33,002 nucleotides of DNA, taken from NCBI GenBank assembly GCA_902766095.1, contig CACXCN010000090.1, positions 1 to 33,002 on the forward strand, written 5' to 3'. The position numbers and the translations under genes were made by a program. A model generated the notes under the pieces. It had not been told where the DNA came from. It worked only from the letters and a program-made list of their open reading frames with translations, and made no database searches. Of this stretch, positions 2,536 to 33,002 are shown piece by piece. Each line of letters opens with the position of its first letter. The stretch's first letter is position 1. The DNA is from an uncultured Selenomonas sp. (GTDB lineage Bacteria > Bacillota > Negativicutes > Selenomonadales > Selenomonadaceae).

Positions 2536-4218
2536 TCACCGGATCGTCAGCCTGACCTGCTGCAGGAATTCGTCCGCCGACCGGCCATAAACCGAGCGGA
2601 ATGCCCTTGCCGCATCGCCCTGCGTGCGCGTCTGCTGCAGCCAGTGCTGGATACTGCGCCAGCCGCCATGCTGCAGGAGCCCGGCAGCCGCATACTCGGA
2701 GAATTCGGATACGGCCTTGTTGCCGTACTCCTGTTCCGCCTGCTTATAGCCTTTTGTCGAAGCCAGATCGATGGGACTCGTCAGGGGGGAGCCGTGCAGT
2801 TCCTGCTGCCAGTTGCGCTGATAGTCAGCCAATGTGACCCGCTGACCGGCGATGGCGAACTGCACGCCCATCAGATAGCCGGCACCATGCTGGAGCCATT
2901 CCAGCGTCTTGCCAGCCGTATCATCCGCCCGGCCGGTGATATTCATATATTGTGATTCATAAAGCCGCATGAGCATCGTGCCGACGATGAAGCGCCGCTG
3001 CATGCCATCCGACAGCTCACCGGCATTCATGATGAGCGTGCTGCCATGCTCGACCCACAGACTGTCGCCGGCCATATTCCGGGCTTCATCCGCATCGAGT
3101 CCCAGCTCCTGCCGGGCGGCCGCAGCCATATCACCGGCATCGGCCGCCAGTATGACACGATAGTGCCCATGCATATCGCTGCCGAGCAACCGACGCAGCA
3201 GTCCCCTGGCCTCTCCGGTCTCCCCGGTGAACGAATCCCGCAGCGACTGGCTCACACCGGAGCGGGTCTCGATATCGAGCTGCAGCGGACTGCGCCGCTC
3301 CTGCGCCCACCAGCGGCTGAATTCCTGCAGAAAATCATCCAGCGATACGCCGAAGGAGCGGGCGAATGCCTGCTGACCGTCATGTGTCTCCCGCAGAGCC
3401 TCGAAATAACCGGCCAGAGCCTTTACACCCGTCCGGTTCGCGCTGTGGCTGTCCGACAGACCGCCGGCCGCATAATGCGTCACGAGGTACCAGGTCATGA
3501 GGTCCGACAGCTGATAGGTATGCAGGTCCTGCTGCATGAGCTTGATGCGCTGCTCCTGATTGCAGTGCTGCAGGGCATCGATCTTCACGAGCTTCGCGGC
3601 TCCGAGCAGATCGAGTTCGACATCGAGATGCCATTTGTCCACGGTTCGACCGCCGAGCTCCTCGCAAAGCGCCGCCCCGACGAAATCAGCCGAGCCCTCC
3701 TCGAGCCAGAATATGGCCGCATCGTCCGTATCATGCCCCTGCGCCAGCGCATACTGGAGCTGATGGAACAGCTCATGCCCCGTCGTCGTATAGTGATTGC
3801 TCTTATCGCTCATCACGCCGGCCGCGGCATTGATCACCGTTATGCCGGTGGCGCCGCCGGTCCAGCCGCCCGAGACGCGGGCGATATTATCTGCTTCATC
3901 GGCCTTCAGGTCGAACTTGTCACTCAGCGTCGATTGATAGGTATCCTCATCCGCTGCCAGGTACAGACTGACATCCTGCATCGCATAGTTCCCCGTACAG
4001 GATGCGATGAAGTCGGGGAATTTTTCTGCTGCGAGCTTCACATCCTGCAAAGCTGCCGCTGGCGGATTGCCGACCGTCTCCACCCGTATCTGACCGTTCC
4101 CGCGGTCATGAGGCCATAGCTGGCTCCAAAAGCTGTCCGGAACAGCCACTGCCAGCACGACACCGATCAGACAGACCAGGACACCCAGCCCCGCCAGAAT
4201 ACGAATCAGCCTGGACAA
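2536..4218 (-). CDS. Membrane-anchored metallopeptidase-like protein with two tandem peptidase-MA-like domains, the second degenerate
   Basis: This 560-residue protein has one N-terminal hydrophobic helix (about 4-26), predicting a signal anchor with an extracytoplasmic body. The first half (about 78-310) has a zinc-peptidase signature: HELFH at 148-152 and WLEEGSADF at 171-179, where E174 would be the third ligand (gluzincin, peptidase-MA-like). The second half (about 348-560) repeats the same layout about 270 residues later. LAAD..(L)..ADEA.N.A at 357-382 mirrors 87-112, WLQHGAGYLMG (441-451) mirrors WLEEGSADFVG (171-181), and the ends (about 521-559 and 270-304) match. There, the positions of H148, E149, H152 and E174 have become T, M, R and H, so the second domain cannot bind zinc this way. 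It follows the ABC permease by 14 nt and is the last gene of its run. Substrate unknown. Confidence 0.75.
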   Translation of the reverse strand: MSRLIRILAGLGVLVCLIGVVLAVAVPDSFWSQLWPHDRGNGQIRVETVGNPPAAALQDVKLAAEKFPDFIASCTGNYAMQDVSLYLAADEDTYQSTLSDKFDLKADEADNIARVSGGWTGGATGITVINAAAGVMSDKSNHYTTTGHELFHQLQYALAQGHDTDDAAIFWLEEGSADFVGAALCEELGGRTVDKWHLDVELDLLGAAKLVKIDALQHCNQEQRIKLMQQDLHTYQLSDLMTWYLVTHYAAGGLSDSHSANRTGVKALAGYFEALRETHDGQQAFARSFGVSLDDFLQEFSRWWAQERRSPLQLDIETRSGVSQSLRDSFTGETGEARGLLRRLLGSDMHGHYRVILAADAGDMAAAARQELGLDADEARNMAGDSLWVEHGSTLIMNAGELSDGMQRRFIVGTMLMRLYESQYMNITGRADDTAGKTLEWLQHGAGYLMGVQFAIAGQRVTLADYQRNWQQELHGSPLTSPIDLASTKGYKQAEQEYGNKAVSEFSEYAAAGLLQHGGWRSIQHWLQQTRTQGDAARAFRSVYGRSADEFLQQVRLTIR

Positions 4219-4232
4219 ACGAAATCACCTCA

Positions 4233-4979
4233 TCATTGCCACCGGCACAAACGGCTTTGGAAAAAATCGATGATGCCGAACAGCAGCAGCCCCATAGCCG
4301 ATAGCACGACGATGCCGGCATACATATCGAGATAGTTGACCCGCAGCCAGGCATCCATGATGAAATATCCCATGCCGTACTGCGTCCCGAACGTCTCCGT
4401 GAAGAACAGTACCGAGATCGCCGTCGCCATGGCCACCCTGATAGCGGTAAAGAATTTCGGCAAGGTCGCAGGGAATATGATGTAGCGGAAGACCTGGCCG
4501 AGTGAGGCTCCCAGCGAATAGAGCGGATAATAGGTCTCCCGGGGCAGACCGCCGATGCCATCGCGCACCGCTATGACGACCTGGAACACGATGATCAGGA
4601 AGATCATGATGATTTTGCTGAGCTCCCCGACCCCGGCCAGCAGCATCAGGATGGGCAGCAAAGCGATTTTCGGGATCGGGTACGTGAGATAGACGATGGG
4701 CGCCAGCAGGCGGTCGGCCCGCGGAAAATAGCCCATGAGCAGGCCGAGCGGATAGCCGACGATGACCGCCAGCACCAGACCGGCCGCGATGCGCCATATG
4801 CTGTACAGCGCGTGGATGGATATCGCACTGACCATGATGCTGGCCAGGCGCTCGAATACCCGCCACGGCTGCGGCACGATGGGCAGCTGCATGACTGCCG
4901 CGACAGCGGACCAGACGACCAGCAGGAATACGGCCCCTAGCAGATAGGAGCGCAATACGCGCCAGGAACTTATCGGCAT
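4233..4979 (-). CDS. ABC transporter permease (NitT/TauT, SsuC/TauC type)
   Basis: This 248-residue integral membrane protein has about six hydrophobic helices and the BPD_transp_1 coupling loop, here LYSLGASLGQVFRYIIFPAT (about 153-172), which contacts the ATPase. Length and layout fit SsuC/TauC/NrtB permeases. Its ATG overlaps the ATPase stop by one base (TGATG), implying translational coupling. With the ATPase and lipoprotein upstream it forms a complete importer. Sequence alone does not give the substrate; the family covers sulfonates, nitrate, taurine, thiamine precursors and others. Confidence 0.88.
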   Translation of the reverse strand: MPISSWRVLRSYLLGAVFLLVVWSAVAAVMQLPIVPQPWRVFERLASIMVSAISIHALYSIWRIAAGLVLAVIVGYPLGLLMGYFPRADRLLAPIVYLTYPIPKIALLPILMLLAGVGELSKIIMIFLIIVFQVVIAVRDGIGGLPRETYYPLYSLGASLGQVFRYIIFPATLPKFFTAIRVAMATAISVLFFTETFGTQYGMGYFIMDAWLRVNYLDMYAGIVVLSAMGLLLFGIIDFFQSRLCRWQ

Positions 4980-5761
4980 CAGTGCTCCACCTCCCCGCGC
5001 AGCATGTCATGCAACTGGTTTGCCAGCTGCTGGAACTGCTGGCCGCCGCGAGCGGCCCTGTCACCAGCGAGCGGATTGACGATCACGCGCCGCACCTGAC
5101 CCGGGCTCGCGCTGAATACGACGATCGTCTGCGCCAGATAGAGCGCCTCCTCGACGTAGTGCGTGACGAGCAGCGTCGTGACCGAGTTTTCCTGCCACAG
5201 CCGCAGGAATATGTTCTGCATCTCCTCGCGCGTTATCGCATCGAGCGCTGAGAACGGCTCATCCATCAGCAACAGATCAGGCTCGAGCAGGAACTCCCGG
5301 GCCAGACCGACCCGCTGCTGCTGTCCGCCCGACAGCTCGCGCGGATAGCGCTGCTCGAAGCCGGCGAGCCCGAGGTCGTTCAGCAGCCGATCGCGCTTTT
5401 CCTGCGCGACCGGCTGCTTCTTTATGCGGCAGGCCAGCTCGACATTATCCCGCACATTCTTCCAGGGCAGCAGGCCGTAGTTCTGAGGCATGAAGCCGAT
5501 GCTCAGGCGATGAGGGTCGACCGGTTCGCCATTGATGGCGACCGTGCCCTCATAATCATGCGTGAGACCGGCCACTGCCCGCAGCAACGTCGATTTGCCG
5601 CATCCCGAGGGGCCGATGAGGGCGCATATCTGCCCCTGCTCCACCGTCAGGTCGATATGATCGAGCACTTTGACCAGATGATGCGCCTCTTCATAGGTGA
5701 CCGTCAGATCATTGATCCTGATTGCTGGCTCCCGGCTGCTCATATTCGGCTCAGGCTTCAA
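4979..5761 (-). CDS. ABC transporter ATP-binding protein (NitT/TauT, SsuB/TauB type)
   Basis: This 260-residue cytoplasmic ATPase has all the expected motifs: Walker A GPSGCGKST, Q-loop MPQN, signature LSGGQQQR, Walker B LLLMDEP with FSALD, and switch His in VTHYVEEA. It powers the adjacent permease. The start is the TTG at 5761, chosen because GAGGG sits 5 nt upstream; an in-frame ATG six codons later has no good site. It lies 40 nt after the binding-protein gene and overlaps the permease by one base. Confidence 0.9.
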   Translation of the reverse strand: MKPEPNMSSREPAIRINDLTVTYEEAHHLVKVLDHIDLTVEQGQICALIGPSGCGKSTLLRAVAGLTHDYEGTVAINGEPVDPHRLSIGFMPQNYGLLPWKNVRDNVELACRIKKQPVAQEKRDRLLNDLGLAGFEQRYPRELSGGQQQRVGLAREFLLEPDLLLMDEPFSALDAITREEMQNIFLRLWQENSVTTLLVTHYVEEALYLAQTIVVFSASPGQVRRVIVNPLAGDRAARGGQQFQQLANQLHDMLRGEVEH

Positions 5762-5801
5762 AATATCCCTCTTCCCCTAAAAATATCTCTTTGGCAATCT
5801 C

Positions 5802-6752
5802 TCAGTTCAACAGATTGGTCACGATATCATCATAGCTATAGGCTTTATCGATCAGCCCCTTCTCGTGGAGCCAATTCATGCATTCATCGACATCCGACTG
5901 TTTGGGCATATCAGCATGATGATATTTCGGCAACTGCAGAGCCTCTTTGGCAGCGTCCGGGAAACCGCTCTTCTCTATGACGAGGTCGATGTACTCCTCG
6001 CGCGGCGTATTGTTCAGATAATCCACAGCCTTGTTATAGGCCCTGTACAGCGCTTTGATCGACTCGGCCTTGTCCGTCGTCGCTTTCTTGGTGAATACCA
6101 TCACGCCGGGATTGATGCCCATGCTTTCCGAATCCGTGATGAGCGTGCAGCCATTATGTACCGCGATGCTGGCCATCGGCTCCGGCAGTGTGGCAGCCGC
6201 CAGCTTGCCATTCTGCAGCATCTCGAGGCGCGTCGGGATCTGCGGGATGATGACCTTGTTGATGCTGTCAGGCGTCATATGCTCCTGGGCGAGGATGCGG
6301 TCCGTCACATAGTCGATGATCGTGTTCTTCGACACGGCTACATCCTGCCCGGCCAGATTCGGGACCGTATTGATGCCCGACGCCTGGCTGGCCACGAGCC
6401 GGTAATTGCCATCTGTGAACGAGGTGACCCGGACATCGAAGCCACCCGCTTCCGCGAAGGCCACCGCCAGCAGATCGGAGATATCGCCATCGAGGTTGCC
6501 GCTCTGCAGGGCCGAGTCCCGATCCATGGCGCTCTTGAACTGCTGCACCGTGACATCAAGGCCTTCCTCAGCAAAGTACCCCTTCTCCTGGGCGATGATG
6601 AACGGGATGGAGTCCGTATCCGGCATGACACCGATCGTCAGTGGTTGCAGCTTCTTTCCCTGGCTGCTCTCACTCGTCTGATTCGTACTGCCACAGCCGG
6701 CAGCCACTGCTATGAGCATCACCGCTGCGAGTATTGCAAATACCTTCCGCAT
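5802..6752 (-). CDS. ABC transporter substrate-binding lipoprotein (NMT1/THI5-like, NitT/TauT family)
   Basis: This 316-residue protein starts with a lipoprotein signal peptide: a basic start, a hydrophobic core and a near-consensus lipobox AAGC with lipidation at Cys20. The mature part opens with PLTIGVMPDTDSIPFIIAQE and has the GYFAEEGLDV element typical of NMT1/THI5-like binding proteins, with a type-II periplasmic-binding fold expected. It should deliver a small solute to the permease and ATPase encoded just downstream. No thiamine, sulfur or nitrate gene or riboswitch is nearby, so the ligand is unknown. It follows the coiled-coil protein gene by 48 nt with no obvious promoter, which suggests one transcript. 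Confidence 0.88.
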   Translation of the reverse strand: MRKVFAILAAVMLIAVAAGCGSTNQTSESSQGKKLQPLTIGVMPDTDSIPFIIAQEKGYFAEEGLDVTVQQFKSAMDRDSALQSGNLDGDISDLLAVAFAEAGGFDVRVTSFTDGNYRLVASQASGINTVPNLAGQDVAVSKNTIIDYVTDRILAQEHMTPDSINKVIIPQIPTRLEMLQNGKLAAATLPEPMASIAVHNGCTLITDSESMGINPGVMVFTKKATTDKAESIKALYRAYNKAVDYLNNTPREEYIDLVIEKSGFPDAAKEALQLPKYHHADMPKQSDVDECMNWLHEKGLIDKAYSYDDIVTNLLN

Positions 6753-6800: not shown

Positions 6801-7652
6801 TTAATTGAACAGAATCGACTTCACGATATCGGCTCCCACGCCGACATAGTTCATGACCTTGTCGATTGTTCCCTTGTTGTCATCGTAGGCTGCCTGGGCC
6901 TTGTCCGTGAGGCTGTGCGCCTCCTGCTGCAGCCCCTGCAGCGACTTGATATTGCTATCGACATTATCGAGCATCTGCTGGGTCTCGGCCAGCGATTTCT
7001 GTACCGAGTCCGACTCACTAGCATTGCGGGATACTGCCTCCTGATTGGCTCCGGCCCGCTTCTCGCGGTCAGCCGTCTTGCCGGTCACCTTGTCTATGAT
7101 TTTGCCAATCGTAGAGTCGCTGCCCTCCTGGCCGATCCTGGCTCCGGCAGCCTTCAGGTCTCCCGACTGACCAGCCAGCTCGCTCTGCCGCTGCTCGAGA
7201 GCCTTTTTCTGCTTCTCGAGGTCTTGTTTCTGGCGCTCGAGATCGGCCTCCTGCTGCTTGAGCTGGCTTTCCTTATCTTTCAGCTGCTGCGCCTGATAGA
7301 TCTTCTTCTGCTGAGCGGCCTGCTGCTCATGCGAATAGCCCGTTATGACGAGCCCGAGCAACACCGCCACACAAAAGGCCCCGGCGAGCAGCGCTTTGCG
7401 TTTGCGACTCTTCGTCCACCAACCCGATTTCTTTTGCGGCTCGATGCGTTTGTCCCGGGCCAGCTCGCGCACCGGCCGGTCATCATCGGGATAGTCCTTG
7501 GCCTCTCCAGCTTTTTGCGGGAAGGGAGCCTTGATGTCTTCGATGGCCGGCAGTTCCTGCGTATCGCCCCGGTTCATTTTACGCGTAGCGTCATCGCCGA
7601 GAGCCGGATTCTGACGGTCGCGTTCATCCCTGTCCATGTTTATGTTGCTCAT
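6801..7652 (-). CDS. Unknown single-pass membrane protein with long coiled coil
   Basis: I do not recognise a family for this 283-residue protein. Residues 1-80 are hydrophilic and charged, with no signal peptide. One transmembrane helix spans about 87-106, preceded by KSRKRK, so the N-terminus should be cytoplasmic. Residues about 108-165 are a heptad-rich Gln/Lys/Glu coiled coil. A second helical stretch covers about 205-265, ending in a short hydrophobic tail. Its ATG overlaps the stop of the DUF3783 gene (ATGA), so the two are probably translated together. By layout it could be a scaffold or envelope-spanning rod. Confidence 0.7.
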   Translation of the reverse strand: MSNINMDRDERDRQNPALGDDATRKMNRGDTQELPAIEDIKAPFPQKAGEAKDYPDDDRPVRELARDKRIEPQKKSGWWTKSRKRKALLAGAFCVAVLLGLVITGYSHEQQAAQQKKIYQAQQLKDKESQLKQQEADLERQKQDLEKQKKALEQRQSELAGQSGDLKAAGARIGQEGSDSTIGKIIDKVTGKTADREKRAGANQEAVSRNASESDSVQKSLAETQQMLDNVDSNIKSLQGLQQEAHSLTDKAQAAYDDNKGTIDKVMNYVGVGADIVKSILFN

Positions 7653-8056
7653 ACGTTCTTACCCTTTTCCTGTGCAATCATCCAGGCATGTTCCCGCTGC
7701 ATCGTCTCACAGAGGCGCTTCAGCGTCCAGAATTTATTGACCGGCGTCACGACTGATTTATAGGCGATATCGGGCACGCCTGCCTCCCGCAGGGCCTTCA
7801 GCACTTTATCCAGCCGCTTATCGCGGATGTCCTGCATCACCATGACCTCATGCGGGAACGAGAACTCCTCTGCCGCCGGCTGATTCGGGCCAAATCCTGG
7901 CAGTCCGAGGAGATAGCCGACCTTTTCCTGCCAGTCGTCATCCTTCAGTTCCTTGACCTCTATCTTCAGATCAGCCATGACCTGCTTGACGGATGCCAGT
8001 CGATCGGCATCCGTGAATCTGTACAATAATACCTTTTCCTGTTTTTTCATCGTCAT
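7649..8056 (-). CDS. DUF3783 domain-containing protein
   Basis: This 135-residue soluble protein matches the DUF3783 pattern: an N-terminal LLYRF strand, a middle PHEVMVMQDI segment, and a C-terminal VVTPVNKFWTLKRL motif. In this family the conserved stretches are F-x-x-E-V-M-V-M and T-P-x-N-x-x-W. The function is unknown. The reading frame overlaps the NYN gene upstream (ATGA) and the coiled-coil gene downstream (ATGA), so the three are very likely one translational unit. A second ATG two codons inside (8050) is possible. Confidence 0.75.
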   Translation of the reverse strand: MTMKKQEKVLLYRFTDADRLASVKQVMADLKIEVKELKDDDWQEKVGYLLGLPGFGPNQPAAEEFSFPHEVMVMQDIRDKRLDKVLKALREAGVPDIAYKSVVTPVNKFWTLKRLCETMQREHAWMIAQEKGKNV

Positions 8057-8991
8057 TTCACCAAGCCACGCATAAGAAGATAGGTAACGAGCTCGTCCAG
8101 CGTGACGCCCTCCGTCCTCATGCGCTCATCCAGTTCCTGCCGCAGGGTCTTCGGCAGATTGACCACCAATCTGCCGCCCAGATCCAGCTCCGTCTGGGAA
8201 TGGTTCGGCTCCTGAGCTGTCTTTTCCCGATTCTTCTTGCTTTCCTTGCCCTTCTTGCCAGCCGTATTGCTCTTGCTGTCTGGGCTTTCCGTTTTTGCTT
8301 TCTCGGCGGACTTATTCTCCTTGCCGCTATGAGCTGCTTTTTCCTTCTTCGAGGGAGCGGCATTGTGGTTCTCGCCCTTCTTCGCCGAGGCTTTCTTCCC
8401 CTCAGCCGGCTTCGCCTCGGATTTTTTCGGCTCAGACTTTTTCGACTCAGCCTTTTTCACTTCGGCTTTCTTTGTCTCTGTCGTTTCGGCGGTCTTGCCG
8501 TCATCGGCCTGCGCCGCTGCCTTCTTCTTGCTGCGGCTCTTCTTTTCCGCCGGCTCCGGTGGATAGACATAGAACTCATTATAGGCCTGACGCAGAGTCT
8601 CGCTGGCCTGTTTCGTGCCCACGCCGATGATGTAGGACGGCTCCTCCGAATTCAGCAGCTCGGCGATGCGCACGAAATCAGAATCCGTCGTGATGATGAG
8701 GTATTTGCGCACCCCCTCATCATACAAGATCTTGGCCGAATCATAAAGCGCGGAATCCAGCGAGTTCTTGCCGAAATAGGTGCGGCTGATCTGCCGGAAC
8801 GTGAACCCGGGACGCCGCATGAGCTTGTCCCAGCGCTTCTGATCCGGCCGCTGATCCCAGTCCGACACCACGATGGTGCGGCACGGCTGGAACCGGCGCG
8901 CCTTGCCCAGCGTATAATTAAGCATCTCGAACGGTGCATTCTCTATATCGTATAATATCGCTACCGTTTCTTTACTAGAACTCAAAGACAT
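8053..8991 (-). CDS. NYN-domain (PIN-like) nuclease with Lys/Glu-rich linker and C-terminal ribbon-helix-helix
   Basis: This 312-residue protein has three parts. Residues 8-145 form a NYN domain: the acidic positions expected for metal-dependent RNA cleavage are D15 (in LYDIENAP), D79 (KNSLDSALYD) and D103/D105 (TTDSDF). Residues about 147-268 are a low-complexity linker dominated by Lys, Glu, Ala and Ser, probably disordered. Residues about 272-312 (RLVVNLPKTL, then two helices) look like an Arc/CopG-type ribbon-helix-helix, which dimerises and often binds DNA. The combination suggests a dimeric ribonuclease tethered to nucleic acid. It is 65 nt downstream of mnmA and heads a trio of overlapping genes. 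Function is inferred from domains only. Confidence 0.75.
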   Translation of the reverse strand: MSLSSSKETVAILYDIENAPFEMLNYTLGKARRFQPCRTIVVSDWDQRPDQKRWDKLMRRPGFTFRQISRTYFGKNSLDSALYDSAKILYDEGVRKYLIITTDSDFVRIAELLNSEEPSYIIGVGTKQASETLRQAYNEFYVYPPEPAEKKSRSKKKAAAQADDGKTAETTETKKAEVKKAESKKSEPKKSEAKPAEGKKASAKKGENHNAAPSKKEKAAHSGKENKSAEKAKTESPDSKSNTAGKKGKESKKNREKTAQEPNHSQTELDLGGRLVVNLPKTLRQELDERMRTEGVTLDELVTYLLMRGLVK

Positions 8992-32912: not shown

Positions 32913-32917
32913 GCCTA

Positions 32918-33002
32918 ACTGACAGCTTCCTATCCTCCCAGGCCGTCACCAGCCAAGTACTTTCGGCGTTTGAATGCTTAACTACTGTGTTCGGAATGGG
33001 AA
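32918..33002 (-). rRNA. rrf: 5S ribosomal RNA, 3' part
   Basis: Read on the minus strand, the last 85 nt match the conserved 3' two thirds of bacterial 5S rRNA: CCCATTCCGAACACAG, GTTAAGC, CGCCGAAAGTACTTGG and the CTGGGAGGATAGGAAGCTG end. The 5' third lies beyond the window, as would the 23S and 16S genes. The exact 3' end is an estimate. Confidence 0.95.

Follow-up and report, generated by a model that had tools for sequence, protein, structure and literature searches.

Pairs of an active and a dead peptidase domain are a known kind of arrangement, of which eukaryotes and the M16 family provide the best-described cases. In the M16A and M16C enzymes (insulysin type) and in mitochondrial processing peptidase alpha/beta, the dead half helps to form the cleft and to bind the substrate, and M16 peptidases need this half for their function (PMC11266112). 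Carboxypeptidase D is exported as a single chain with peptidase domains in tandem, the last of which (domain III) is without active-site residues (PMC11266112). The bacterial tandem family considered in this study is apparently undescribed; searches of an open-access library found no paper on it.

The window, that is, the whole stretch of 33,002 nucleotides that was analysed, contains the tandem peptidase gene at 2536..4218 (reverse strand, as for every feature given below in this notation). Its frame is real and open over 560 codons, giving 560 amino acids plus the stop, with a TTG start and an AGGTGA ribosome-binding site lying 6 bases 5' of the TTG, and a promoter scan at the gene found no promoter above chance. 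The nearest named homologues belong to Selenomonas, Mitsuokella and allied MAGs, which makes it very likely that the DNA comes from one of the Selenomonadaceae. A first-pass annotation of this DNA had described the protein as anchored outside the membrane. Residues 2-25 (4144..4215) make up a hydrophobic N-terminal helix, modelled as a helix by AlphaFold2 and probably a signal anchor or signal peptide, which suggests that the protein is probably exported; the anchoring itself is uncertain, because the signal peptides of some Sporomusales relatives appear to be cleavable.

The two halves of the chain are two copies of one gluzincin-type zinc-peptidase fold, homologous well beyond chance. Profiles of residues 42-312 and 313-560, built from 36 full-length homologues, were aligned with each other by HHalign at 99.6% (E 1.5e-24, 239 columns aligned), and BLAST crosses the halves between relatives, pairing domain 1 of L031 with domain 2 of the tandem peptidase (E 2e-7) and domain 2 of L012 with its domain 1 (E 5e-7). 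In the AlphaFold2 model of the whole chain, based on 29 sequences (pLDDT 91.4, pTM 0.88), the order of strands and helices occurs twice, once in each half, and domain 2 modelled alone folds with high confidence (pLDDT 93.7, pTM 0.90). The annotation had proposed that the same order of landmarks recurs about 270 residues apart, which agrees well with the 266-270 residues that separate the aligned zinc-site positions; the tandem repeat is thus upheld, while its boundaries, placed at 78-310 and 348-560, should be moved nearer to residues 42-311 for the zinc-competent domain 1 (3286..4095) and 312-560 for the pseudopeptidase domain 2 (2539..3285).

A sequence search of solved structures with the tandem peptidase returned chance matches only, and the comparison of folds was made with the predicted models. 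Both domains are largely helical, so that chance Z scores can run high, and with this caveat the top matches all belong to one superfamily: domain 1 is matched by Grimontia collagenase (Z 14.7), lugdulysin (Z 14.3) and M1 aminopeptidases, the catalytic domains of collagenase, M30 and M1 enzymes matching its fold at VIA Z 14.3-14.7, and domain 2 alone is matched by the VhaC collagenase (Z 14.2 over 218 residues, 3.7 A), by puromycin-sensitive aminopeptidase (Z 13.6), by a chain of the TFIID entry 7edx (Z 12.8) and by many further structures across the whole domain. The 7edx chain we take to be TAF2, an M1-like non-peptidase of that fold. Both halves are therefore predicted to have the thermolysin-like catalytic fold, as their models match the catalytic domains of M1, M9 and M30 enzymes. 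Unrelated folds for the two halves, which would have spoken against the repeat, were not seen: the elements come in the same order and both halves match solved zinc peptidases.

The gluzincin signature, HExxH followed by a third ligand Glu about 20-25 residues on, is present in domain 1 and absent from domain 2. In domain 1 the motif H148-E149-L-F-H152 (3763..3777) is kept in 35 of the 36 full-length homologues, and the third zinc ligand E174 (3697..3699), within WLEEGSAD, in all 36. Aligned with H148, E149, H152 and E174 are T414, M415, R418 and H444 of domain 2, exactly as the first reading of the sequence had them, so that T414-M415-L-M-R418 (2965..2979) stands where HELFH would be and H444 (2887..2889) replaces the zinc-binding Glu. 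Y235 (3514..3516), whose role as the active-site tyrosine is likely, is conserved in domain 1 and in 14/16 single-domain relatives, and corresponds to S504 in domain 2. We infer that domain 1 would be an active zinc peptidase. The substituted positions of domain 2 are themselves conserved to a considerable degree: Arg is found at the R418 position, that of the second zinc histidine, in 31/32 Selenomonadaceae and in 18/24 representatives, with K, Q or S instead in several outgroups; R or H stands at position 444 in 30/32 Selenomonadaceae; and Y448 (2875..2877), aligned with D178 of domain 1, is invariant in all 32.

The loss of the second zinc site is conserved in every second domain examined. 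Neither HExxH nor the ligand Glu occurs in domain 2 of any of the 36 full-length homologues, and domain 2 likewise lacks both in 40 proteins from named genomes (mostly the same genomes as the 36). A representative set of 24 tandems from seven Negativicutes families, which includes three more distant tandems, was searched for a second half with a zinc site, the finding that would have overturned the idea of a dead copy; HExxH is present in domain 2 of none of the 24, the zinc ligands being intact in 22 of their first domains, and HExxH is kept in all 16 single-domain relatives. In a tree of 64 domains (first, second and single), a single branch has every domain 2 copy on the same side of it, with support of 86/91, rising to 99 once the columns of the catalytic residues and the five longest rows are removed. 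Because the copies are gathered in this way and the tandem is carried by seven families, one old loss, before the spread over these families, is the simplest explanation. The tandem may have come about by duplication, or else by fusion of two paralogues: the AU test does not reject a tree constrained to group domains 1 and 2, along with four domain 1-like single-domain rows (p-AU 0.55), although the domain 2 profile gives a higher score than the domain 1 profile to some of the single-domain proteins, which nevertheless retain their zinc site. Among 299 genomes sampled from the phylum no tandem turned up outside Negativicutes, and viral contigs and plasmids yielded no relative.

Domain 2 is under purifying selection and is not decaying, since close pairs give dN/dS values clearly below 1, of about 0.03-0.25, with 0.35 in one pair of very low dS (0.05); the values for domain 1 are 0.02-0.13. 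Domain 2 is the faster-changing of the two, with a mean pairwise identity of 0.37 vs 0.45 for domain 1. In gluzincins the edge strand is the substrate-binding side. Its equivalent in domain 2, the edge strands at residues 386-398 (S386-N398, SLWVEHGSTLIMN, 3025..3063), averages only 0.97 bits of column entropy, where the corresponding stretch of domain 1 has 1.05 and domain 2 as a whole 1.86.

That a dead copy is retained across several bacterial families suggests a non-catalytic job, such as the holding of substrate, and a holding or shaping role for domain 2 appears to fit best with what the sequences and models offer. We regard the tandem peptidase, with a probability of about one in two, as an exported zinc metallopeptidase in which domain 1 bears the zinc site and the homologous domain 2, its zinc binding permanently lost, is a holding or positioning partner. 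Domain 1 would cut a polypeptide that is exported or lies at the surface; domain 2 would pack against domain 1 and hold or orient this polypeptide through the side formerly used for substrate, the conserved edge strand S386-N398, with the basic pocket at the former metal place (R418, R/H444, Y448) helping to position the polypeptide for domain 1. In this respect the inactive domain may work much as the dead half of M16 peptidases does, without being a member of M16. What counts against such a role is that domain 2 is missing from one genome and halved in two groups, as described below, that R418 is variable in outgroups, and that domain 2 is the less well conserved of the two domains.

Natural variants are informative here. 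The second half of domain 2 is missing in two Selenomonadaceae groups (L009, L010, L071-L073, L075, L076), and no remnant of it was found downstream in any frame; the part which these groups retain is the strand half. The Selenomonadales MAG G315 has domain 1 alone (L087/L129), and proteins whose domain 2 is halved or missing have an intact zinc site in domain 1. In family f22 both domains are present but the HExxH of domain 1 is also gone, being RQLFY in L015 and RHLYY in L128; these two proteins (from G057 and G319, respectively) are apparently all-dead pairs in which the WLAEG Glu of domain 1 is still there. An intermediate domain 2 is seen in L126 (G304, family f30), without HExxH, with the third-ligand Glu and the Tyr kept and with Arg at the second His. 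Single-domain relatives may have extra sequence, about 160 residues before the peptidase domain in L123 and about 150 after it in L134. The truncated, domain-1-only and all-dead variants thus show the dead domain to be usually retained yet not absolutely needed, and the tandem to survive even where neither half has a zinc site. With variants of all these forms (both halves, half of domain 2, no domain 2, both dead) and with its single-domain active relatives, the family offers a small natural set in which the purpose of a dead peptidase domain can be studied.

The main rival is that domain 2 is purely structural, supporting domain 1 or spacing it from the membrane and binding nothing, with a salt bridge of the conserved Arg residues (e.g. 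to E390) in place of zinc as the staple of the fold. Two basic side chains at the old zinc-ligand places would need an acidic partner, which may be E390 or a bound ligand, and R418, R/H444 and E390 are lost jointly in the Propionispira protein L011, as a staple of this kind would predict; the faster change of domain 2 and the loss of half of it in some lineages point the same way. However, a pure spacer has no need of an edge strand as conserved as that of the active domain, and we consider the structural account possible, if on the unlikely side. A bound ligand as the acidic partner leads to a different proposal, namely that the old zinc site is now a conserved basic pocket (R418, R/H444, Y448) in which an acidic group takes the place of the metal, for instance the C-terminus of a peptide or some other anionic ligand, in which case the all-dead f22 pair (L015, L128) would be a pure binding protein; this we hold to be rather doubtful.

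The surroundings of the gene might point to other roles. Upstream of the tandem peptidase, at a distance of 14 bases, is an ABC permease (4233..4979, PF00528 E 2.6e-21), followed upstream by an ABC ATPase (4979..5761, PF00005), a substrate-binding lipoprotein of the NMT1/SsuA kind (5802..6752, PF09084 E 5.2e-20) and a membrane-anchored coiled-coil protein (6801..7652). The last is part of a conserved Selenomonadaceae cluster at positions 6801-8991 made up of an NYN-domain protein with a long Lys/Ala/Glu-rich tail, a DUF3783 protein and the coiled-coil protein, and the usual gene order is NYN, DUF3783, coiled-coil protein, binding protein, ATPase, permease, peptidase. In L051, L052 and L055 the ABC genes are absent and the peptidase comes directly after the coiled-coil gene. 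The ABC cassette (4233-6752), normally placed between these two genes, appears from this comparison to be gained or lost as a block; the genomes of the three loci are without a permease above cut-off. An identity of the coiled-coil neighbour as JetC or LmuB was considered from PADLOC matches and rejected, as the matches are weak and look like coiled-coil background; PADLOC gave no match for the tandem peptidase. A search of the whole stretch with Rfam found nothing near the operon, the sole match being a 5S rRNA at positions 32917-33002, cut by the contig end.

The retention of the coiled-coil-then-peptidase order in the three loci without ABC genes would suit a regulatory domain 2, one that keeps the cleft of domain 1 blocked or gated until its release by a signal or by a partner such as the neighbouring coiled-coil protein. 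There is, however, no direct sign of a plug, and the site of domain 1 stays intact where half or all of domain 2 is missing, so a regulator seems unlikely.

The first-pass annotation had also suggested that the gene, as the end of an ABC transporter operon, might link peptide cleavage to import. The position in the operon is borne out in most Selenomonadaceae that carry the gene: an ABC permease gene is upstream of the peptidase in 33/47 named loci, and the gene is located elsewhere in five Selenomonas-group loci, in Propionispira and in Massilibacillus. Of 189 family genomes, 108 have the permease, 48 the peptidase and 45 both; 63 have the permease but no peptidase and 3 the peptidase but no permease, and in 8 of the 45 the two genes lie on different contigs. 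The binding protein matches only NMT1, NMT1_2 and Lipoprotein_9, and has no match to SBP_bac_5, the mark of Opp/Dpp-kind importers. Taken together, the co-occurrence and the kind of binding protein suggest that co-transcription with the ABC genes at this locus is likely and that a link of peptide cleavage to import is weak. The proposal that the peptidase cuts peptides whose products the adjoining importer takes up has the frequent adjacency in its favour, but against it are the binding protein, which is outside the peptide-binding families, the wider distribution of the permease and the displaced genes of Propionispira and Massilibacillus, and it appears improbable. As for a decaying relic on its way out, the partial loss in two groups and the full loss in G315 are outweighed by dN/dS well under 1, by specific conserved positions and by the presence of domain 2 across seven families, which leave this idea scarcely credible.

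How the tandem peptidase with its putative holding domain stands among known families can be seen by comparison. No curated Pfam or NCBIfam cut-off is passed by it. DUF5700, Peptidase_MA_2 and DUF1570, all putative zinc peptidases, give weak matches around the zinc motif of domain 1, below cut-off for the protein studied and with nothing for its domain 2: DUF5700 (PF18958) scores 18.1 bits against a gathering cut-off of 25 and is weak in 24/29 members, and Peptidase_MA_2 (PF13485) matches 14/29 members with a best E of 1.8e-7, the protein studied being unlisted at E 0.1. Negativicutes single-domain relatives (e.g. L118-L125, L016, L017) have the same domain with HExxH and Glu, but one domain only. 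The bacterial collagenases (M9) and lugdulysin (M30) are among the best fold matches, with Z 13.4-14.7 for domain 1 and 12.1-14.2 for domain 2 at an identity of 14% or less, and we know of no dead twin domain in M9 and M30 enzymes. Both halves also match the catalytic fold of the M1 aminopeptidases (PepN, puromycin-sensitive aminopeptidase, LTA4 hydrolase) at VIA Z of about 13-14.7, but the tandem peptidase is without the N-terminal and C-terminal domains of M1 and without the GAMEN motif, its edge strands reading GGWTGG in domain 1 and LWVEHGST in domain 2, and membership is rejected at 11.8 bits for PF01433 against a cut-off of 27.7. Carboxypeptidase D shares with it the tandem of peptidase domains in an exported chain with the last one dead, but is of the M14 family, has three domains and is eukaryotic. 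From M16 the tandem peptidase is separated by its HELFH (HExxH) motif, since that family requires the inverted HxxEH, and also by the other fold and the chains of about 1,000 residues found there, no sequence relation being seen; yet the M16A and M16C enzymes and mitochondrial processing peptidase are like it in having one zinc-bearing and one homologous dead domain, which in those enzymes act together.
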